40,521 bases of DNA from Moraxellaceae bacterium (GTDB taxonomy: Bacteria > Pseudomonadota > Gammaproteobacteria > Pseudomonadales > Moraxellaceae). The notes under the pieces are model-generated. The model saw nothing but the letters and a program-made list of their open reading frames with translations. It was not told where the DNA came from and ran no database searches. This document shows positions 3,282 to 15,956 of this stretch, one piece after another; position 1 is the first letter of the stretch, and every line of letters begins with the position of its first letter. The DNA is taken from contig JANYEL010000158.1 in NCBI GenBank assembly GCA_025363155.1, forward strand, positions 1-40,521, given 5' to 3'. Both the position numbers and the translations under genes were made by a program.

Positions 3282-4853
3282 CTATTCGCACAACTCAAAA
3301 CGCGAAGTAGGATGCGAGGCCATAGAGGTGACTCTGCGTTCGGCACCTCCGTATTCAACCTGATAATCATTCAAGTCCAATGATTTCAGTCGCTCTTTTA
3401 ACTTTGCCAATGACCAAGGCCATGCCGCAAAGTTACGACCATTCGCATCCAGATAGTAGCTCTTACAGCCACCCGCATTGAACACCGTCGTTTTAATGTT
3501 CTTTTGCACAAGATCATTATGCTTGTTGATGACGTCAGGTTTGATCATCATCTTGCTAATGCCCTGCGTCTTGATCTTCATCAAACCATCGATGATGAAA
3601 TCAAGCTGAGCTTCAGCCAGCCCAATAAATGAATCATAGACCAAGACGTTTGGACCTAATACAAGAAAAGCATTCGGGACATTTTCAAGGCTCGCCCCCA
3701 AATACGCTTGAGGCGAAGTATTTTTCCAAAGATCAGCCAATATCTCGCCTTTCACATTGGTCACGCGTTTGCCAATCGGCGGATGCGACACCTCAAAACC
3801 TGTTCCCCAGATGATGACATCGACTTCATGACGTTCGCCATTGGCAGCGATCACAGTGTTGCCTTCCACTTTGACCAAGCCATGTGGAATCAGTGTGGTA
3901 TTCGGTTGTTGCAATGCAGGGTAATAGTTGTTTGCAAATAATAAACGCTTACAACCAATGGTAAAGTTTGGCGTTACGTTTTTCAGCAGTTCAGGGTCTT
4001 TCACTTGTACTTTAAGCACTTGCTTAAACAACTCACCCACTGGTTTTAACACCGCTGGATTGCGCAAACCAAAGTTAATGGCATTGAGTGACTGTGCCAC
4101 TGCCTTACGCCAACCCTTTTGGATGAATGGATATTTGGCTATGATGGATTTGCTGAATTCACCGAGATCGGTATCTGGTTTTGGCACAACCCACGGTGCC
4201 GTACGTTGGAAGACATACAACTCTTTTGCCAATGGTTGAATCTGTGGCACAAACTGAATCGCTGAGGCGCCTGTTCCAATCACCGCAATTCGCTTACCCG
4301 TTAAATCATAATCATGATTCCATCGGGCGGAGTGGAACATTTCACCTTTAAACGTATCCAGCCCTTCCAGACGTGGAATTTGCGCTTCAGTGATCGGCCC
4401 TGTTGCAAACACAACGGTTCTGGACAAATACTGCCCACTGGTCGTCTCCAACACCCACAGATGACGCTCGTCATCCCATACCGCACTCAGGAGTTCATTG
4501 TTGAATTCAATACGTGACGTCACATTAAAATTTTCGCTAACTTCTTCCAGATAATTGAGGATTTCTGGCTGTCTAGCAAACAGATGACTCCATTTGGCAC
4601 TCGGTGCAAACGAATAAGAATACAAAGCCGATGGCACATCACAGCCACAGCCTGGGTACGTATTTTCACGCCATGTGCCACCGACGCGACTCGCTTTTTC
4701 AATAATCTTGTAATTGCTATAGCCGACCTGATCCAAACGAATGGCCGTCGCAATCCCTGAAATACCAGAGCCAACAATAAAACTATCAAAGATGTGGGCA
4801 GAGTGCTCTGCGGTTTTCTCGATAGAATCTGTGGTTTTAATTTGAGCAGTCAT
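3282..4853 (-). CDS. Flavin-binding monooxygenase, Baeyer-Villiger type
   Basis: A 523-residue NAD(P)H- and FAD-dependent monooxygenase. The FAD Rossmann motif GSGISG is at 28-33 and the second (NADPH) motif GTGASA at 193-198. The Baeyer-Villiger fingerprint FKGEMFHSARW at 168-178 fits FxGxxxHxxxW, and the longer fingerprint GGTWRENTYPGCGCD at 58-72 is also present. Such enzymes insert oxygen into ketones or aldehydes, or oxidise heteroatoms; the substrate cannot be read from the sequence. It is the last gene of a three-gene minus-strand operon, 23 bp after an SDR gene, so an alcohol-to-ketone-to-ester sequence is a reasonable inference. The pairing recalls the M. tuberculosis mymA operon. 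It is not close to AlmA as I recall that sequence. Confidence 0.9.
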   Translation of the reverse strand: MTAQIKTTDSIEKTAEHSAHIFDSFIVGSGISGIATAIRLDQVGYSNYKIIEKASRVGGTWRENTYPGCGCDVPSALYSYSFAPSAKWSHLFARQPEILNYLEEVSENFNVTSRIEFNNELLSAVWDDERHLWVLETTSGQYLSRTVVFATGPITEAQIPRLEGLDTFKGEMFHSARWNHDYDLTGKRIAVIGTGASAIQFVPQIQPLAKELYVFQRTAPWVVPKPDTDLGEFSKSIIAKYPFIQKGWRKAVAQSLNAINFGLRNPAVLKPVGELFKQVLKVQVKDPELLKNVTPNFTIGCKRLLFANNYYPALQQPNTTLIPHGLVKVEGNTVIAANGERHEVDVIIWGTGFEVSHPPIGKRVTNVKGEILADLWKNTSPQAYLGASLENVPNAFLVLGPNVLVYDSFIGLAEAQLDFIIDGLMKIKTQGISKMMIKPDVINKHNDLVQKNIKTTVFNAGGCKSYYLDANGRNFAAWPWSLAKLKERLKSLDLNDYQVEYGGAERRVTSMASHPTSRFELCE

Positions 4854-4876
4854 AGACGTTTACCTATAAAATTCTG

Positions 4877-5710
4877 TTATTTAAAAAACTGGTACGACGT
4901 ACCCAAAAATTTTGCGTAGAGACTTGGCGATGTACGTTTCATCAGCCAGAACAGCTTCGCGTCGATTTGCGGAACGGTATACAGCTGACCTTTATCCAGA
5001 CGATCCAGAGTCAGGGTGGCAACTGAATCACTCGTCGTAAAGGCATAATTCATCAAAGCGTTATCAGCGAGTTTGGAATAACGATCTGGGATACGACCAT
5101 TTTTGATGATGTTGGTCGGTACCAGCGTTGGGCACAGCACATTAACTTTGATCTTGAATTTTTGCAGCTCCGCTGACAATGTCTCTGACAGTGCAAGCAC
5201 ACCCGATTTGGTGACGTTATAAGCAGTCATTTCTGGAGCAGCGGTATAACCTGCCGCAGACGCGACGTTGATAATCGCACCGTAGCCAAGTTGTTTAAAC
5301 TTCGGCACAAAATAATGGCAACCATGGATCACACCCCATAAGTTGACATGCATACACCATTTCCAATCATCCAGCGTTAGTTCGTCGAACTTGCCGCCTA
5401 AGCCCACGCCTGCATTGTTGATGACCAATGTGGTCGGGTGCTGCATCAGCACTTCCGCTTGTTCGGACAAAGACTTCACCTGCTCTGCGTCGCCAACATC
5501 ACACTGAATCGCAAATCCTTTCGCACCCAACTGCGCCAGCAAGCCAACGGTCTCTTCAGCGGCGGCTAGGTTGATGTCGGCACAGACGACCGTACCACCG
5601 CGTTTTGCGAGCTCTAGTGCAAAACTACGACCAATACCACTCCCCGCGCCAGTCACAACTGCGTAGGCTTGCTGACTCGGCTTTTTACTTTTCTTACCAA
5701 ATAAACTCAT
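4877..5710 (-). CDS. SDR-family NAD(P)-dependent oxidoreductase
   Basis: A 277-residue classical short-chain dehydrogenase. TGAGSGIG (20-27) binds the cofactor, NNAG is near 98-101, the catalytic serine is in NVASAAG (S151) and the YNVTK motif gives Y164 and K168. The acidic residue after the second strand (CADIN) hints at NAD preference. The C-terminal hydrophobic/basic tail (FWLMKRTSPSLYAKFLG) is common in SDRs acting on lipophilic substrates. It lies between the diiron protein gene (68 bp upstream) and the monooxygenase gene (23 bp downstream) on one transcript. It probably interconverts an alcohol and a ketone or aldehyde feeding the monooxygenase; the substrate is unknown. Confidence 0.92.
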   Translation of the reverse strand: MSLFGKKSKKPSQQAYAVVTGAGSGIGRSFALELAKRGGTVVCADINLAAAEETVGLLAQLGAKGFAIQCDVGDAEQVKSLSEQAEVLMQHPTTLVINNAGVGLGGKFDELTLDDWKWCMHVNLWGVIHGCHYFVPKFKQLGYGAIINVASAAGYTAAPEMTAYNVTKSGVLALSETLSAELQKFKIKVNVLCPTLVPTNIIKNGRIPDRYSKLADNALMNYAFTTSDSVATLTLDRLDKGQLYTVPQIDAKLFWLMKRTSPSLYAKFLGTSYQFFK

Positions 5711-5778
5711 GATTTATCCAACAATAATTAAGAGAAAAGACCAACCATCGTTGAGATGGCTGGTGATTGAGATAATGC

Positions 5779-6747
5779 TTAGGCTGCTTTCACTTTCGGG
5801 ATAATTTCTTTGGTCAGATAGCGCGCAAGCAAACCATCTTTACGGGTTAATAATTTTTCTTTGTAATAGACCAAATATTCAGACGTATCGTGGTCATTGG
5901 GATGAAAATCAGGGCGCACGTAATCAAGAATATGCCCAAAGGTACTACCAAATACGCCGTCTCTAGGGCCAAATAATAGACCAACACCGCGTACCGCATC
6001 TTTCCAAAATGCTGGACGGATCAAATTGCTTGGCTTGCGAAGGAATGGAATCGCCACAGCACCTGCGGATACGCCACCAAAAATGACCAACGTTGCCAGC
6101 GCAAATCCAGACATACGCAACACATAACTACCAGAGAGTGTTTGATACACATCATACGCAATGTCTTTATGCTCTGATTCTTCCAACATATGCCATTGCC
6201 ACATGGCTTTGGTCTTATCATCATCGGTGATCAGGTCAAACACCGACTCATGCTTCATCATGTACTCGGCCAGTACCGCCGTAAAATGCTCAATACCTGC
6301 CATCATGGATAACTTCATTGGCTGAGGAAGCTTTAACAAGCCGTGATCAAAGACTTGTTTCGCCAAGAAACGATAGAACGTGACCGGAAAATTATGCTCG
6401 ATCAAGGTGTCATTCCACTCATCATGAATTTTAGAATGAATCGCTTCTTGACCGATCAAGGCCGTCACACGTTGTTTAAGGATTGGATCCGTCAGGAAAT
6501 CACGATGATAGCGTGCGGTTTCAATGACCAGATCTTCACCAAAAGTCAGAAAAATCGATAACGCCTCAAAATACGCTGATGCAAATTCCGAATGCAGATA
6601 AAATTTGTCATTCAAATCCGCCGCATTAAACTTAAAATCAAAGTGACGAATCGGAATCAGGTCTTTCTTGGAGAAATCCCTGATCACCACTTGATTCTTG
6701 GTTTTAAATTTAGCAAAGACTGAGCTTTTGATTGCTGGCGCGTTCAT
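5779..6747 (-). CDS. Ferritin-like diiron protein, PF10118 'metal-dependent hydrolase' family
   Basis: A 322-residue protein resembling the PF10118 family, often annotated as metal-dependent hydrolase. Candidate metal ligands have the spacing of a ferritin-like diiron centre: E71 in FGEDLVIE, E101-x2-H104 (EAIH), E153/H154 in GIEHFTAVLAE, and E190-x2-H193 (EESEHKD). This points to an oxygen-using diiron enzyme rather than a hydrolase; that is inference. A hydrophobic stretch near 212-235 (GFALATLVIFGGVSAGAVAIPF) suggests membrane association. It is the first gene of the operon with the SDR and monooxygenase. AAAGGA precedes the ATG. The promoter about 120-145 bp upstream carries an operator-like repeat. 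Confidence 0.8.
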   Translation of the reverse strand: MNAPAIKSSVFAKFKTKNQVVIRDFSKKDLIPIRHFDFKFNAADLNDKFYLHSEFASAYFEALSIFLTFGEDLVIETARYHRDFLTDPILKQRVTALIGQEAIHSKIHDEWNDTLIEHNFPVTFYRFLAKQVFDHGLLKLPQPMKLSMMAGIEHFTAVLAEYMMKHESVFDLITDDDKTKAMWQWHMLEESEHKDIAYDVYQTLSGSYVLRMSGFALATLVIFGGVSAGAVAIPFLRKPSNLIRPAFWKDAVRGVGLLFGPRDGVFGSTFGHILDYVRPDFHPNDHDTSEYLVYYKEKLLTRKDGLLARYLTKEIIPKVKAA

Positions 6748-9125: not shown

Positions 9126-10694
9126 TCAATATTGCGGATAATGCGTAATCTTACGTATCGCACGATATAGCGGCTGTAAACTTGGATAAATCTGACTATA
9201 CACTTGCTTATAGAGCTGATCATAGAGCTCGACATGCTCGGCTTGCGGATGAAAGACTTTGCCTTGATGGCTCATGGCTTTCACAGCGGCAGCATGATTA
9301 CGATAATAACCCGCGCCCACCGCAGCATTGATCGCAGCGCCTAAACCCGAAGTTTCGAAGGTATGTGGTCGCTCAGCAGTGATTCCAAAAATATTGGCAG
9401 TGATCTGCATAATTTCATCACTTTGCGAGCCGCCGCCAGCCACTTTCAAACGAGTGATCGGTTGACCATTCCGTTTCTCAAGTGTGGTTCTGCCCTGACG
9501 CAGAGCGTAGCAAATACCTTCAATAATCGCGCGGTACATATGCGCACGCGTATGCACATCACCGAAACCAATGATCGATCCTTTCGCTTCGGGCCCAGGA
9601 AACTTCACGCCTGGTGTCCAGAAAGGTTGCAACATCAAACCCATCGCACCCGGTGGCGATTGACGGAGTAAGTCCTCAAACAATAATTCTGGCTCAATGC
9701 CTTGCGCTTCTGCTGCCATCACTTCTTGAGCCGCAAATTCACGTTTAAACCAATTCACCATCCAATAACCACGGAAAACCATAAACTCTGAGTTATAAGC
9801 ATGTGGTACTGCTGCTGGATAGGCAGGCATAAACGGGAGAGGCTCAACATATTTTGAATTGCCCGTATTCAGCGTTGCCGTTGTTCCGTAGCTTAGACAG
9901 CCGACATCTGGCGTAATCGCACCAGCCGCCAACACTTCACACGCCTTGTCCGCGCCAGCCGCATAGAGAACCAAGCCTTCTGGAATACCCGTTTCGCGCG
10001 CTGCATGTTTACTAATGGTACCTAATGGCTCGCCCGCTTGTACCAGTGGTGGTAATTGATGAGGCTTAACTGTCAATGCTCGCCATTTTAAATCGAGCGC
10101 AGATGCCCATTTTTGGTTTTTATAATCGAAAGGAATATAGCCAATTTGCGAAGCAACAGCATCATTGAGTTTATCCGTCAGTTTGAGAGTGAGATAGGCA
10201 GACAGCTGCACAAAATGCTTAGTCTTCGCCCAAACATCTGCATGATCAGCCGCCAACCAATTACACTCAGCTTTCGACTGAAACTGGCGCATGATGGGTT
10301 CTTGACCTGCAACTTTGATCCCTGTTTTCAGCCAAAGCGGTAATTCTGGATAATGATCCGTACGCCGTGAATCCAACCAAATCGTTGCTGGGCGCAGTGG
10401 TTGTAAATCCTTATCGAGACACAACATGGTGGCACGCTGACAAGCGAGAGACACAGCAACCACGCGGTGTTTCAGTTCAGGATGAACGTTCCATAAACTG
10501 TGACAGGCAACAATCACATTTTCCCAGAAATAACTCGCATGCTGCTCCGCCCAATTCGGATGCTCAGAAAAGTACGGCTCAATATGCTGTTGGGATTTGG
10601 CAACCAGTTGACCCTCTAAATCAAACAACATCGCGCGAACGCTTTGTGTGCCTTGATCAATAGCCAAAAATAAATCTTGTGATGACATCGTCAT
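9126..10694 (-). CDS. FGGY-family carbohydrate/polyol kinase
   Basis: A 522-residue sugar/polyol kinase with the ASKHA fold. The N-terminal phosphate-binding segment is AIDQGTQSVRAMLF (11-24), the catalytic aspartate is predicted as D249 in GADKACE, and the C-terminal ATP-binding segment is VAGGGSQSDEIMQ. It is a distinct FGGY member, not canonical GlpK: the usual GlpK signature around WTQSLFD is not seen. It is the last gene of an operon with a GlpD-type dehydrogenase (76 bp upstream) and an alkyl-DHAP-synthase-like flavoprotein. That context suggests it phosphorylates glycerol or a 1-O-alkylglycerol to a 3-phosphate for the dehydrogenase. Other polyols remain possible. Confidence 0.88.
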   Translation of the reverse strand: MTMSSQDLFLAIDQGTQSVRAMLFDLEGQLVAKSQQHIEPYFSEHPNWAEQHASYFWENVIVACHSLWNVHPELKHRVVAVSLACQRATMLCLDKDLQPLRPATIWLDSRRTDHYPELPLWLKTGIKVAGQEPIMRQFQSKAECNWLAADHADVWAKTKHFVQLSAYLTLKLTDKLNDAVASQIGYIPFDYKNQKWASALDLKWRALTVKPHQLPPLVQAGEPLGTISKHAARETGIPEGLVLYAAGADKACEVLAAGAITPDVGCLSYGTTATLNTGNSKYVEPLPFMPAYPAAVPHAYNSEFMVFRGYWMVNWFKREFAAQEVMAAEAQGIEPELLFEDLLRQSPPGAMGLMLQPFWTPGVKFPGPEAKGSIIGFGDVHTRAHMYRAIIEGICYALRQGRTTLEKRNGQPITRLKVAGGGSQSDEIMQITANIFGITAERPHTFETSGLGAAINAAVGAGYYRNHAAAVKAMSHQGKVFHPQAEHVELYDQLYKQVYSQIYPSLQPLYRAIRKITHYPQY

Positions 10695-10770
10695 GATCCT
10701 GTTTAATTCATTCCGAGCATCCCTGCTCTATTAATCAATTTGGATGATTCAAAAAAACCGAGTCAAAAAA

Positions 10771-12261
10771 TCATGCTGGCACTGAATATGAGCTAGCGAT
10801 AATCTGCTGATAACGCGCCAACTCCTGTAGCCAACGCGACTCATCCCACGCTAAATATTGCACGCATAATGCTTTAATGGTGTCCAAAATTTCAGCCCCA
10901 CCATTTGGCATCATATTGCCAGCACGGATACGACGCAGCATCAAATCATCCAAATGCTGAACCATCTCGTTTTGTAAAATCCATTCCACTTGAGTTTTCA
11001 ACTGAGCGTTATTCGGCACCGCCACCAACGGCGAACTCAAATCACAAGGATCTTCAACGTGATGATTGAAGCAACGTAATTTACGATTATTTTGTGCATC
11101 TTTGAGCTGTTTATCATTGATGATACACAGCGCATGCAGTACATCCAATGCGATCAATCTGAAGGTGGTGAGTTTGCCTCCAGACACCGTTACAACGCCA
11201 TTACTGCCTGTCCACACCAAATGATCACGGCGTTCTTTTGACGGATCATTACCCGTACCAGAACCTATAATCGGACGAACACCCGCCATGGTTGAAATAA
11301 TATCTGCACGGGTAAGTGACACGGTCGGCAACTGTTTATTCGCCACTTTCAGCAAATAATCAACTTCTTGTGATGTACAGAACGGCTCGGTATTGACTGA
11401 TTCACGATGATCTAAATCGGTCGTCCCAATGCTGATCTGACCTTTCCATGGGTAGATAAATACTGGACGATTATCGTCTGGATGCATCACCGTCAGGCAA
11501 TCATGAATCGGCATTTTTGCTGCAGAAATAAAAATATGACTGCCGCGTTGTGGACGAACTTTAGCACCCGTCGCGGAGAGAATATCTGCCCACGCGCCTG
11601 TCGCATTGACCACTTGCTTAGCCTTAAATTCAACCGTTTCACCCGTCACAGTATCTTTGACTGAAAGGTTAAATCCTTCTGACGTTGGATTAACTGCACT
11701 GACTTGGCTGTAGTTATTAGCCGTTCCACCTTCTAGCACAGCCTCATGTAGCACGCGCAAGACTAAACGCGCATCATCCACCAGCGCATCGGTATAACGC
11801 ATTCCACCTTTTAAGCCTTCGGCGTTTAAGATCGGATATTGCTGCAACAACTTATCACGCGAAAGCCAATTGTGATCTGATACTCCAGCCAGTTTGTCAT
11901 ACATAGTCAAAACGGCGGTCATCGCGATACGACCCGGAAAACTGCCTTGGCGAATCGGGAAAATATATGGAAAACGAACCACCATATGTGGCAATTCAAC
12001 CAATAAGCGTTCGCGTTCATGCAAAGAGTGCTTCGTCAGCCCCACATCACCTTGTGCGAGATAACGCAAACCACCATGCACCATTTTTGATGAACGGCTG
12101 GATGTGCCCCACGCAAAGTCTTGTTGTTCGAGCAGTAATGTTTTTTGGCCTAAGCGCGCCGCTTCAAGCAAAATGCCCGCACCCGTGATGCCACCACCAA
12201 TCACCACTAAATCCCAATCGGTTTTACTCAGTTCACTCAACGCTTGCCGATGACCCAGCAT
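10771..12261 (-). CDS. glpD: Glycerol-3-phosphate dehydrogenase (FAD), GlpD-type
   Basis: A 496-residue FAD enzyme. The Rossmann motif VIGGGITGAGI sits at 20-30, followed by the GlpD signature GTSSRSSKMVHGGLRYL (52-68) and the later segments ISIGTTDLDHR and MAGVRPIIGSGTG; the C-terminal domain of about 110 residues matches the aerobic GlpD family. It oxidises sn-glycerol-3-phosphate to dihydroxyacetone phosphate at the inner membrane, reducing quinone. It lies between the FGGY kinase and the AGPS-like flavoprotein on one transcript (gaps 76 and 96 bp). No glpF, glpK or glpR is nearby, so the substrate may be an alkylated glycerol phosphate rather than free G3P; this part is inference. Confidence 0.87.
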   Translation of the reverse strand: MLGHRQALSELSKTDWDLVVIGGGITGAGILLEAARLGQKTLLLEQQDFAWGTSSRSSKMVHGGLRYLAQGDVGLTKHSLHERERLLVELPHMVVRFPYIFPIRQGSFPGRIAMTAVLTMYDKLAGVSDHNWLSRDKLLQQYPILNAEGLKGGMRYTDALVDDARLVLRVLHEAVLEGGTANNYSQVSAVNPTSEGFNLSVKDTVTGETVEFKAKQVVNATGAWADILSATGAKVRPQRGSHIFISAAKMPIHDCLTVMHPDDNRPVFIYPWKGQISIGTTDLDHRESVNTEPFCTSQEVDYLLKVANKQLPTVSLTRADIISTMAGVRPIIGSGTGNDPSKERRDHLVWTGSNGVVTVSGGKLTTFRLIALDVLHALCIINDKQLKDAQNNRKLRCFNHHVEDPCDLSSPLVAVPNNAQLKTQVEWILQNEMVQHLDDLMLRRIRAGNMMPNGGAEILDTIKALCVQYLAWDESRWLQELARYQQIIASSYSVPA

Positions 12262-12357
12262 AGTTCACACTCATTTAGAAAATATTGATATTAATAACAA
12301 TCAAAAAGTGAGCTGATCAATCGAAACGCTCACTTTGATTATAATTCAGACAACAGC

Positions 12358-13959
12358 TTAAGCTTCGAGGATCAAACAACCCGGATTGAGCTGCTTATTC
12401 GGATCGAAATGCTTGATCATCGTGTCGATCAAAGCAATGCCTTCCGCTCCCTTCTCCACATGAAGCCACTGCGCATGATCGCGTCCGATGCCATGTTGAT
12501 GGCTCGCTGTGCCGCCCATCCTGGCAATAGAATCGCCTGCGGCTTGCTTGTATTTTTTCCAGCGCTCAAGGATTTCAGGATAGTGATCTGAGTTCTTAAA
12601 AATATAGGTCGTATAAATGCTACAGCCTTGGCCATACATGTGCGACAGATGCGTAAATACTTGTACAGGATGCTCATCGCTCGCATCACGAATCGCTTGT
12701 TCCATCTCATTCATACACGCCGTGACTTTATCCCAATTGATACACGTCTCAAAGGTATCTACCGAATAGCCATGTTCCCATAAACCATTACGGAAGTATG
12801 GCGAACGGAAGCGCGAATGCTCCCAGATACCGCCCATGAAACTACTGGCAATGTAGGTACCGCCCGCAGCATTGATGGCGCGTTTTGCTTCGGCAAGGGC
12901 AAATTTGGCTTGACGATTGCTGCCCGTCACACCAAAGGTAAACATACAACGTTCACCATTACGGCATTTTTTAAGCTTTAACAAACCATCATAGGCTTTA
13001 AACAGCGGATGATTACCACCCAATGACAGATGAGATTCCGTTTCAGCGGCATTCGATAAGCGCATCAGCGATAACTGCACTTTGTTTTGTGCAAGTTCGC
13101 GAACCATCTTGATACCCGCTTCCCAATTCGGCGCAAAGCCAACGTGGAAAGACTCATGCTCAGGCAATGCCGTTACGCGTACCTTTACTTCGGTAATCGC
13201 ACCCATGCGACCCTCACTACCCAATACTACTTCGCGTAGATCAGGGCCTGCGGATGAGGCTGGAATATCTTTAATTTCAAGCGTGCCGCGTGGCGTTTCC
13301 ATTTTGCAGCCAGCAAACATTTGCTCGATGCGACCATAGCGCAACGATTGCTGCCCTGACGAACGACTCGCAACCCAACCACCAACCGTCGCCAACTCCC
13401 AAGATTGTGGGAAATGACCGAGTACATAACCATGCTTTTTCAATTGTTTTTCAAGCGCTGGGCCAGGTGTTCCTGCACCAAAAGTTGCGATTTGGCTTTC
13501 ACGATTCAGGTCGAGCAGTTTATTCATTTTTTCTAAAGACAAGGTCAATACAGGCTTATCTGATGCTTGCACATTGATATGCCCAGCCACTGACGTACCG
13601 CCACCATAAATGATAACGATGAACCCATTGTTGTATGCCCATAAAAGGACTTCACGTACTTCATCGCCATTTTTTGGCAACGCAACGCCATCAGGGAAAT
13701 AACCAAAATCACCCGAATGCTTCGCAATCCAATCTGGAAAGCTTTCACCACGCGCATGACGCACACGCACCTCTAGATCTTGCGAAACGAGTGGATGGAC
13801 AGGCAATCGCGACTTTGGAACTTTGGCTTTGACTTCCGCCAGACTCGCGTCGACAAGAATGGGGCCTTTACCACCCAGCTTCTCTCCTAAAAACTCAAGT
13901 CCTTTCGATTTGAGCGGAAAATCTGTTGCATCATCACCCCAGCCATTCCAACGACGCAT
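12358..13959 (-). CDS. Alkyldihydroxyacetonephosphate synthase-like FAD-linked oxidase
   Basis: A 533-residue vanillyl-alcohol-oxidase-type flavoprotein. The PCMH FAD-binding domain (about 85-265) contains YGGGTSVAG, LGHFPQSWELATVGGWVASRSSGQQS and YGRIEQMF, which strongly resemble alkyl-DHAP synthase (AGPS), the ether-lipid enzyme exchanging the acyl chain of acyl-DHAP for a fatty alcohol. A C-terminal FAD-linked oxidase domain ends with LNPGCLI. The active-site region of AGPS has three histidines; here it reads SHQHGIG (H487-Q488-H489). It is the first gene of the operon with the GlpD-type enzyme and FGGY kinase. I infer a role in making or, more likely given the partners, breaking ether bonds of alkyl-DHAP. 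A plain 2-hydroxyacid or glycolate-type dehydrogenase is the alternative. Confidence 0.8.
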   Translation of the reverse strand: MRRWNGWGDDATDFPLKSKGLEFLGEKLGGKGPILVDASLAEVKAKVPKSRLPVHPLVSQDLEVRVRHARGESFPDWIAKHSGDFGYFPDGVALPKNGDEVREVLLWAYNNGFIVIIYGGGTSVAGHINVQASDKPVLTLSLEKMNKLLDLNRESQIATFGAGTPGPALEKQLKKHGYVLGHFPQSWELATVGGWVASRSSGQQSLRYGRIEQMFAGCKMETPRGTLEIKDIPASSAGPDLREVVLGSEGRMGAITEVKVRVTALPEHESFHVGFAPNWEAGIKMVRELAQNKVQLSLMRLSNAAETESHLSLGGNHPLFKAYDGLLKLKKCRNGERCMFTFGVTGSNRQAKFALAEAKRAINAAGGTYIASSFMGGIWEHSRFRSPYFRNGLWEHGYSVDTFETCINWDKVTACMNEMEQAIRDASDEHPVQVFTHLSHMYGQGCSIYTTYIFKNSDHYPEILERWKKYKQAAGDSIARMGGTASHQHGIGRDHAQWLHVEKGAEGIALIDTMIKHFDPNKQLNPGCLILEA

Positions 13960-14337
13960 GATTTAAACCTCTTGATCTTTATAGAATTAATAAAATGATT
14001 GGCTTTATTCCCTTAAACCAAAGCATCGCCACTTGCGAAAAATCTTAATTTTCAGCTAAATTTTGTGACCGTGCATGTCAACAAAAAGGTGGCTGACACA
14101 TCACAGATTTGAATTTGCGCGCAATATCATGCCAAAGTTATGCAAATCAAAATTGACTCTAGATGACCATGTTTTTAACATTTCGCGCCAAGAGTTGTCG
14201 TGATTAGCATAATGCCTAATATCGACTCGGTTGTATGAAGATTGCTAACACGATAAAGAGAAAATGCTACACCCATGCGCTAAGACGAATCGACATCAAT
14301 TGCCCATTGAAAATCAAAATCAGATGACCAATCAGGC
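13960..14337. other. Intergenic region upstream of the AGPS-like operon
   Basis: 378 bp between the starts-side of the AGPS-like operon and the stop of the diiron protein gene. It holds no credible gene and should contain the operon promoter on the minus strand. TTGCGCGCAA, a 10-bp perfect palindrome, is at 14115-14124, and TGTCA/TGACA arms flank about 14078-14098. I could not settle on one -35/-10 pair. Confidence 0.45.
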
Positions 14338-15198
14338 TTATGAAGACGTCAGAATATCCGACTTCATATGACTGCATGACATAGAAAATTGATGGTTCCA
14401 GAACTCATTCCACAAGTCGCAATATTCTAGGCATGTTTTTTTTAATAATTCATAATCTTCTGGAGTACAGGCTTGTGTTAACGCTTGCCAAAGGTCATTT
14501 TCATGATCGTCATCAGCCGCATCCGTTGCGCCATCCGAAGTCACCCCATGAACATGGTAGTAGCCATGCTCAACATTGATACCTACTGCTTTCGTCGCCT
14601 CTCTTAACGGCGGACTAAAGACAATAACCTGTAATTCAGCCACCGCTAACAGGGCAACGACATCGGTATAACTCGAGTAAGAACTCTCCAGAAAACCTCT
14701 CACTAAGGCGGAATAATGAGTCGGTACATAGTTTTGGCGCTCTTGCTGTGACACCCCCAAATCATTTAACACATCTTCAAACAACGGGTAATGTGCATAC
14801 GCTGGATTGCCTTGATAGTATCCATCACGATCATGGCCTGGCTGAAAACCAAATTCGTCCAATACATTTAATGTGAAAAGGAAGCGGGCAGGAATTTTAG
14901 AACTTGGGCGCAATCGAGGCTCTAATTGTCGTGTTTGGAATTGAGCCATCAATAGTGCATCGGTAAATATCTGAACGATCGCATGACGATATTCTAAGTG
15001 TATTTTTTTGATGGCTTCGAAATGAAAGGTACCCTTGTTCAGCATATCAATGATCGGATTTGTGATCAGAGTATGTTGCTTAATTTGACAGCGCAACGAT
15101 GTCACAAAATCATGATTAGACACCCAAACATCTGGCTCAACACTCTCTTTCAACGCGTTGATTGCACGTTCTCTTGGAGAATCTAACTTCGTACTCAT
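14338..15198 (-). CDS. Haem-oxygenase-like diiron protein ('iron-containing redox enzyme')
   Basis: A 286-residue, mostly helical protein resembling the haem-oxygenase-like diiron oxidase superfamily that includes UndA and the PqqC-like fold. The motif NVLDEFGFQPGHDRDGYYQGNPAYAHYPLFEDVL (111-144) matches the family pattern NxxxE...H, giving E115 and H136 as candidate iron ligands, with E188 in AVAELQ and H217 plus nearby acidic residues in HVHGVTSDGATD as the others. Members use Fe2 and O2 to cleave C-C or oxidise C-N bonds of fatty or amino acids. The substrate is unknown. The gene diverges from a TetR regulator 179 bp away with two palindromes between them, so it is probably that regulator's target. 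The ribosome site is weak (GATGG). Confidence 0.7.
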   Translation of the reverse strand: MSTKLDSPRERAINALKESVEPDVWVSNHDFVTSLRCQIKQHTLITNPIIDMLNKGTFHFEAIKKIHLEYRHAIVQIFTDALLMAQFQTRQLEPRLRPSSKIPARFLFTLNVLDEFGFQPGHDRDGYYQGNPAYAHYPLFEDVLNDLGVSQQERQNYVPTHYSALVRGFLESSYSSYTDVVALLAVAELQVIVFSPPLREATKAVGINVEHGYYHVHGVTSDGATDAADDDHENDLWQALTQACTPEDYELLKKTCLEYCDLWNEFWNHQFSMSCSHMKSDILTSS

Positions 15199-15377: not shown

Positions 15378-15956
15378 ATGAATATCGGCATAAAATCCAA
15401 GCAGGAGGACATCTTAGACACAGCGACGAGTTTGTTTTCTGAATTCGGATATCATGCGGTAGGCATTGATAGAATTATTGCTGAATCTAAGGTTGCCAAA
15501 ATGACGCTTTACAAGCACTTCCCTTCCAAAGATTTTCTCATTGAAAGCGTATTAGTTCGCCGTGATTTTATGCTGCGCGAAAGCATTATCGATAATCTCA
15601 ATAAAGAAACGACGCCCCTACTAAAATTGAAATCAATTTTTGATTGGTACGCGAGATGGTTTCAGAGTGAAGATTTTCACGGTTGTATGTTCATTAAAGC
15701 GACTGAAGAGTTCTCTGACATCACCTCGAACATCCGCAAGTTTTCCCAAGATCACAAAGTCTGGATCACAGACCTGATGGAATCTTTACTTAAAGAAGTC
15801 GGCGTAAAAAACGCTGATGCAATGGCAGCACATTTGATTGTGATTTTGGATGGTTTAACGGTACAAGCGAATATGTTTACGACCGACCGTGTCGAACAAA
15901 TCAATTACGCTTGGAAATACGTTGAATATGTCGCAGTCAGCGCACCATCTATGTAA
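15378..15956 (+). CDS. TetR-family transcriptional regulator
   Basis: A 192-residue regulator. The N-terminal TetR DNA-binding domain runs from ILDTATSLFSEFGYHAVGIDRIIAESKVAKMTLYKHFPSKDFLIE (about 12-56), with the recognition helix in KVAKMTLYKHF. The C-terminal half is the ligand-binding domain with the FHGCMFIKATEEF segment common in the YcdC/AcrR-like group that often senses aldehydes or electrophiles. It is divergent from the diiron protein gene, and the shared intergenic region contains two palindromes, so it probably represses that gene and itself. GGCAAAG precedes the ATG at 15378. The effector is unknown. Confidence 0.92.
   Translation: MNIGIKSKQEDILDTATSLFSEFGYHAVGIDRIIAESKVAKMTLYKHFPSKDFLIESVLVRRDFMLRESIIDNLNKETTPLLKLKSIFDWYARWFQSEDFHGCMFIKATEEFSDITSNIRKFSQDHKVWITDLMESLLKEVGVKNADAMAAHLIVILDGLTVQANMFTTDRVEQINYAWKYVEYVAVSAPSM

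Follow-up and report, generated by a model that had tools for sequence, protein, structure and literature searches.

We describe here a three-gene cassette on the minus strand of a 40,521-nucleotide stretch of DNA (hereafter the window) from a Moraxellaceae bacterium (GenBank assembly GCA_025363155.1, contig JANYEL010000158.1, positions 1 to 40,521), encoding a flavoprotein related to alkyl-dihydroxyacetone-phosphate (alkyl-DHAP) synthase (AGPS), a GlpD-like dehydrogenase and an FGGY-family kinase. The trio is a conserved unit whose grouping goes far beyond chance, and sequence comparison suggests that it is lipid-related and probably catabolic, with a kinase that would seem unlike glycerol kinase. 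Our proposal, to which we would give an even chance, is that the cassette is a catabolic set of three enzymes for 1-O-alkylglycerols, the cores of ether lipids, leading from alkylglycerol through alkyl-glycerol-3-phosphate (alkyl-G3P) and alkyl-DHAP to DHAP and a fatty alcohol. The operon itself is already known; the reading of its function as breakdown is partly supported. The three genes are as follows.

12358..13959, minus strand: AGPS-like flavin adenine dinucleotide (FAD) flavoprotein, first gene (533 amino acids; open reading frame (ORF), Pfam FAD_binding_4 and FAD-oxidase_C); putative alkyl-DHAP ether-opening enzyme.
10771..12261, minus strand: GlpD-like FAD dehydrogenase, second gene (496 amino acids; ORF, Pfam DAO and DAO_C); putative alkyl-G3P dehydrogenase.
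9126..10694, minus strand: FGGY-family kinase, third gene (522 amino acids; ORF, Pfam FGGY_N and FGGY_C); putative alkylglycerol kinase.

An earlier note, made from the sequence of this DNA alone, had described three minus-strand genes with gaps of 76-96 bp and had named the same three families; the ORFs, with gaps of 96 bp (flavoprotein/GlpD-like) and 76 bp (GlpD-like/kinase), agree with this, as do the Pfam domains and PDB sequence matches. The window's proteins reach none of the curated NCBIfam cut-offs for GlpD (258 of 360 bits), GlpK (142 of 590) or GlcD (112 of 568), and are therefore off-type members of their families.

Searching species genomes with the flavoprotein yielded 97 relatives, the best 80 of which were kept as loci, with genes called by codon-usage scoring, longest-ORF calling being poor in GC-rich loci. 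Flavoprotein, GlpD and kinase genes lie on one strand in the same order in 62 of these 80 loci. Another 14 have flavoprotein and GlpD only (8 ending at a contig edge, 6 from Chloroflexota with sequence to spare), one, also from Chloroflexota, has flavoprotein and kinase without GlpD, and in three the flavoprotein stands alone at a contig edge. Neighbouring genes abut or overlap at 46 of 75 and 31 of 61 junctions; the gap lengths behind these counts depend on the gene starts chosen. Among 149 genomes of the family, 43 have both flavoprotein (presence threshold E 1e-60, 44 genomes positive) and kinase, one has the flavoprotein only, none the kinase only, and 105 neither. Fisher tests of this co-occurrence ignore shared ancestry; yet genus g203 includes species with both genes and others with neither. 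Flavoprotein and kinase share contig and strand in 39 of the 43 genomes and lie on different contigs in four; the spacing is 54 bp in one and 1.5-2.1 kb in the other same-contig pairs, which leaves room for one gene. GlpD, at E 1e-60, is found in 42 of the 44 flavoprotein genomes, plus 11 without the flavoprotein, and one of the two misses (G309) has a weaker GlpD match in place. At one locus (L113, on contig C10 of genome G234) the kinase gene directly follows the flavoprotein gene, and the GlpD-like gene is on a different contig. Beyond the family the cassette flavoprotein is seldom found: matches occur in 9 of 229 genomes from the class, and the weakest has 32% identity; the closest named relative of the window's own comes from a Moraxellaceae metagenome-assembled genome (MAG; 96%).

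The same trio, in the same three families and the same order, is PA3026-PA3024 of Pseudomonas aeruginosa, described in 2021 as activated by the AraC regulator GliR (PMC8151288). That study shows regulation, not enzyme function; it draws the direction as glycerol to G3P to DHAP, with acylation by another enzyme and then alkyl exchange, and it reports that GliR co-activates the phospholipase C PA3464 and the YegS lipid kinase PA3023 with the operon; the word 'ether' is absent from its main text (PMC8151288). In open-licence PubMed Central literature no tested function for the trio was found after the GliR study. A GliR-type AraC gene stands divergent and directly upstream in 31 of the 80 related loci (that of L006 passes the NCBIfam GliR model, 666 versus 570 bits); the window differs from this type in having no adjacent AraC/GliR gene, its neighbours being PF14518 and TetR genes.

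In the proposed route the FGGY enzyme would use ATP to turn 1-O-alkyl-sn-glycerol into 1-O-alkyl-sn-glycerol-3-phosphate, and in mammals alkylglycerol is known to be phosphorylated by an alkylglycerol kinase (PMC9131029). The GlpD-like flavoprotein, through its FAD, would then oxidise C2, pass the electrons to quinone and yield alkyl-DHAP. AGPS works by flavin-adduct chemistry, and the AGPS-like flavoprotein would run this chemistry in reverse: the flavin would take the DHAP part with loss of the fatty alcohol, after which DHAP (or acyl-DHAP) would be freed from the adduct by water (or a fatty acid). DHAP would enter central metabolism, and the fatty alcohol would be oxidised to acyl-CoA. AGMO (alkylglycerol monooxygenase) opens the same ether bond, but it is a tetrahydrobiopterin-dependent membrane oxygenase, unrelated in protein and in chemistry (PMC3617469). 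The earlier note had drawn the same breakdown pathway; its lipid-related and probably catabolic character is what the comparative evidence supports. Observed are the order and conservation of the genes, their families and folds, the residue patterns and the neighbours; substrate, ether cleavage and direction, along with the chemistry and the electron acceptor, we infer. Breakdown is favoured because a true GlpK is encoded elsewhere in the host, four glycerol-contact residues are missing from the cassette kinase, two actinobacterial loci have a lipid kinase next to flavoprotein and GlpD, a FadR-type regulator gene precedes 8 loci and a synthesis-type cluster, where one was found, looks different.

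The best PDB sequence match of the flavoprotein is AGPS (E 7.3e-64 to 2uuu and 3.4e-55 to 4bby), at 219 bits versus 68 for D-lactate dehydrogenase. With its AlphaFold2 (AF2) model, which has a predicted local distance difference test (pLDDT) value of 79 and falls under 50 at parts of the flavin region, a fold search returned AGPS for all 37 best PDB matches and D-lactate dehydrogenase next, at least 8 orders weaker. A 2-hydroxyacid dehydrogenase as the nearest family was accordingly rejected, AGPS being far ahead by sequence and by fold. Active-site roles are assumed here to be those of AGPS, no literature on them having been found; titles among the PDB fold matches show that the AGPS mutants R419H and Y578F have solved structures. 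By guinea pig AGPS numbering, H300, R419, R515, Y578, H615 and H617 are kept in 80 of 80 flavoproteins, and D303 and H616 are each replaced by Gln in 80 of 80; Asp303 and His616 are present in the guinea pig and Dictyostelium enzymes and in a Streptomyces AGPS (locus L091), and the actinobacterial flavoproteins keep His at the H616 position. A length filter in the residue counts of all three proteins dropped one of 80 loci for the flavoprotein (L059), 6 of 75 for GlpD and 2 of 63 for the kinase. As a guess, the invariant Gln at the H616 position could let water replace the alcohol. The cassette flavoprotein is thus like AGPS of animals and Dictyostelium in sequence, fold, R419, Y578 and most active-site positions, but differs in its overall identity (~27.5%), in Gln at 303 and 616, in its tree group and in its partners, which are a kinase and GlpD rather than acyltransferase and reductase. 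In a tree of 41 rows the cassette flavoproteins form one group (27 rows, support 100/100, of which 19 have a kinase gene called next to them), AGPS of guinea pig, Dictyostelium and Streptomyces L091 a second (97/96, the two eukaryotic rows on long branches) and three actinobacterial flavoproteins a third; proteins from polyethylene glycol (PEG)/dioxane plasmids and their kin lie apart.

By E. coli GlpK numbering, all 62 cassette kinases, the window's included, keep the catalytic D246 together with R84 and W104, and none keeps E85, Y136, Q247 or F271, which we take to be the glycerol-contact residues of GlpK. E85 is replaced by Gly (44), Ala (15), Ser (2) or Gln (1), Y136 by Phe (55), Leu (5) or Val (2), and Q247 by Lys in all 62, and the F271 position falls in a deletion in 62 of 62. 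The host's own GlpK retains all compared residues, these four among them. E. coli XylB also has the F271 deletion and LsrK retains Glu85, and the whole cassette pattern occurs in neither; as a pattern of residues it would fit a substrate with one hydroxyl capped. The earlier note had argued against plain glycerol use from a lack of glpF, glpR and canonical GlpK. That lack can hold for the window alone. The draft host genome yielded no DeoR-type (GlpR-like) regulator, but at genome level the argument from a missing GlpK is wrong: a full GlpK lies on another contig (719.6 bits, NCBIfam cut-off 590), and MIP-channel matches lie on three contigs. The correction helps the breakdown reading, since a host with a true GlpK has no need of a second one. 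GlpK matches at E 1e-100 occur in 41 of the 44 cassette genomes (two as fragments) and in 72 of the 105 without the cassette.

The GlpD-like protein has glycerol-3-phosphate oxidases and dehydrogenases as its best PDB matches. By E. coli GlpD numbering, R54, Y55, H233, R317, R332 and K354 are kept in 70 of 70 GlpD-like proteins, and N14, Y275 and Y334 are replaced in nearly all 70, these positions presumably having the roles they have in E. coli GlpD, where the six that are kept belong to the G3P site. The head group and stereochemistry of 1-O-alkyl-sn-glycerol-3-phosphate are identical to those of G3P. In the draft host genome the cassette gene is the only GlpD-like gene at E 1e-20; three genus-mates also carry an E. 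coli-type GlpD, and the E. coli-type GlpD genes outside the window's genus, 25 of 25, are in genomes without the cassette. This distribution would suit a set for glycerol/G3P salvage, with the flavoprotein in some unrelated oxidative role; we consider this very doubtful, given the true GlpK in so many cassette genomes, the kinase residues and a flavoprotein that is AGPS-like and not of 2-hydroxyacid type.

Gene neighbourhoods point towards lipid. In Streptomyces fungicidicus and Tsukamurella loci, TetR and GlpD genes lie on one side of the flavoprotein gene and a YegS/diacylglycerol-kinase-type gene directly after it (only the Streptomyces kinase passes the NCBIfam family cut-off), so that in these two actinobacterial loci a lipid kinase would occupy the place of the FGGY enzyme, which suggests a lipid link. 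The actinobacterial GlpD-TetR-flavoprotein-YegS cluster (L086, L090) resembles the cassette in combining an AGPS-like flavoprotein (36% identity), GlpD and a kinase, and differs in its YegS-type lipid kinase, in a flavoprotein that keeps HHH and in the TetR gene inside the cluster; we take Rv2249c-Rv2252 of Mycobacterium tuberculosis to be a cluster of the same look. Three Pseudomonas loci have YegS matches ~1 kb past the kinase. The gene directly upstream codes for a GntR regulator with FadR_C domain in 7 of 10 loci from Chloroflexota and in one from Bacillota (8 of 8 checked), and the single regulator compared with NCBIfam passes one FadR model of two; FadR senses acyl-CoA. The one synthesis-type cluster found, L091 (3169-6434 of this locus, which comes from a plasmid of Streptomyces sp. 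NBC_01450), has in tight succession genes for a short-chain dehydrogenase/reductase (SDR), a PlsC-type acyltransferase and a Dictyostelium-like AGPS with Asp303 and HHH that groups with eukaryotic AGPS, apart from the cassette; its 5-kb flanks gave no GlpD, FGGY or YegS match. It is a candidate actinobacterial operon for the synthesis of alkyl-DHAP/alkyl-G3P and resembles in kind the AGPS operon of Myxococcus (PMC9131029).

Several observations weigh against the breakdown of alkylglycerols as we propose it. The kinase pattern would say 'not glycerol' and not 'alkylglycerol', XylB shares one of its four changes, and the AF2 model of the kinase (pLDDT 86.5) has a generic FGGY fold; the fold was rejected as a guide to substrate, LsrK, XylB and GlpK being equally near. 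Beside flavoprotein and GlpD, an FGGY gene was not recognised in 6 of 10 Chloroflexota loci, and L089, a third member of the actinobacterial group, gave matches for GlpD and TetR but none for YegS. The cassette GlpD may also serve ordinary G3P, since the draft host yielded no other GlpD-like gene, although three genus-mates have the E. coli-type enzyme as well. FadR-type regulators can also activate synthesis genes. On the media that the GliR paper names, growth was unaffected by deletion of PA3026-PA3024 (PMC8151288). In two of three genomes of the related genus g2 (G007 and G248; loci L129 and L108), SDR and NAD-epimerase genes lie just upstream on the same strand, those of G248 being homologues of those of G007, and G259 has none; such genes are found in synthesis operons as well and would fit the reductase of a synthesis route. 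No acyltransferase was found among the tested neighbour genes of G007; at the Alcanivorax locus L005 an acyltransferase gene lies two genes upstream.

These last neighbours speak for ether-lipid synthesis, in which the cassette would make alkyl-DHAP in the direction drawn in the GliR paper (PMC8151288). AGPS is the synthase in animals and Dictyostelium, the sources of the nearest solved structures, and the MXAN_1674-1676 operon of Myxococcus likewise holds a bacterial AGPS homologue (MXAN_1676), with a minor role in ether-lipid synthesis, although its partners are a FAR1/GNPAT-like protein and an epimerase-type protein (PMC9131029). We hold synthesis to be unlikely. Among 30 neighbour genes tested, only that of L005 is an acyltransferase of this kind, and Pfam matches of the neighbours show no acyltransferase or reductase partner adjoining the flavoprotein in the window; the kinase is not of glycerol type, and the flavoprotein falls outside the AGPS-proper tree group. 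DHAP for synthesis would be available from glycolysis and would need no dedicated kinase and quinone-linked dehydrogenase, which argues for breakdown. Alkyl and acyl substrates, for their part, are indistinguishable from sequence, and every lipid-substrate pointer fits equally well a route from monoacylglycerol through lyso-phosphatidate to acyl-DHAP, the normal AGPS substrate (PMC9131029), in which the flavoprotein would exchange or hydrolyse the acyl group. This too we regard as unlikely, since ordinary lipases open esters and a three-enzyme redox route would bring no clear gain.

More distant relatives of the cassette flavoprotein turn up on plasmids (12 of 70 plasmid records with a relative were examined, from 40 listed). 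On those of Xanthobacter dioxanivorans and Sphingopyxis macrogoltabida, which degrade dioxane and polyethylene glycol, respectively, an AGPS-related FAD protein gene is followed by a glutathione S-transferase (GST) gene (L083, 7860-10215; L085, 7860-10208) in clusters with GMC oxidoreductase and acyl-ligase genes, and these proteins are candidate ether-opening enzymes. They count among the pointers to breakdown, and they also lend something to the idea that the cassette breaks down other glycerol ethers without a fatty chain, such as betaine-lipid head groups or industrial glycol ethers. That idea is distinctly unlikely in our view: the FadR-type and phospholipase links point to fatty chains, the plasmid relatives form a separate tree group, and in the stretch seen of a Mycobacterium dioxanotrophicus plasmid a third relative lacks GMC oxidoreductase, acyl-ligase and GST neighbours. 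GMC oxidoreductase genes also occur near five loci, their nearest named family being cholesterol oxidase, weakly, and a possible role is that of a fatty-alcohol oxidase. At three cassettes of betaproteobacterial type (L016, 11185-13349; L020, 5510-7063; L032, 14792-17054), a conserved protein of ~170-200 amino acids without Pfam match and then a GMC oxidoreductase are encoded right after the kinase, and L016 and L032 have sulfatase genes upstream. A search of the host for fatty acyl-CoA reductase (FAR) with PF07993 did not discriminate, 14 of 14 control genomes matching.

There is a broader picture for which we would stop a little short of an even chance: a widespread bacterial route, free of pterin and oxygenase, that would open the ether bond of glycerol ether lipids by reversed AGPS chemistry once the substrate has been phosphorylated and oxidised at C2, its alkylglycerol kinase being a new FGGY subfamily. 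Such a flavin-based route, present in several bacterial phyla, would offer a second solution and would say how bacteria recycle ether lipids, and environmental surveys in which Agps homologues are scored as ether-lipid makers would in part be counting degraders. One survey, with a Myxococcus query, took Agps homologues (at least 30% identity, E <1e-30) as potential for ether-lipid synthesis and reported them in 56 of 558 Chloroflexota MAGs and 42 of 932 from Proteobacteria (PMC11868695); cassette flavoproteins could be among these. The two Gln positions (303 and 616) would be a cheap marker separating the flavoprotein groups.

In the window, the cassette is preceded by the following stretch.

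13960..14337, minus strand: stretch 5' of the cassette and expected promoter region (378 bp), with an AAGAGG-like ribosome-binding site before the first ATG (sequence read).

A promoter scan found no sigma-70-like site on the minus strand in 13960..14337, and the promoter was not located; the promoter and terminator scan gave 13 and 7 sites, compared with 12.7 and 6.1 in shuffles. Beyond this stretch lie a gene for a PF14518 haem-oxygenase-like iron enzyme (14338-15198, minus strand) and a divergent TetR gene (15378-15956, plus strand), a pair that is conserved independently of the cassette. Both were rejected as cassette parts: the enzyme occurs in 30 of the 149 family genomes, 23 of them in genus g209, where no cassette flavoprotein was found. 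A TetR homologue accompanies the PF14518 gene in 12 of 12 fetched loci, the window's included; in the genus-mate G238 the PF14518 gene is ~58 kb from the cassette, and the copy in G236 has an internal TGA. Farther off, at 3282-6747 on the minus strand, genes for a flavin-containing monooxygenase (FMO)-like enzyme, an SDR and a PF10118 metal-dependent hydrolase stand in a row.

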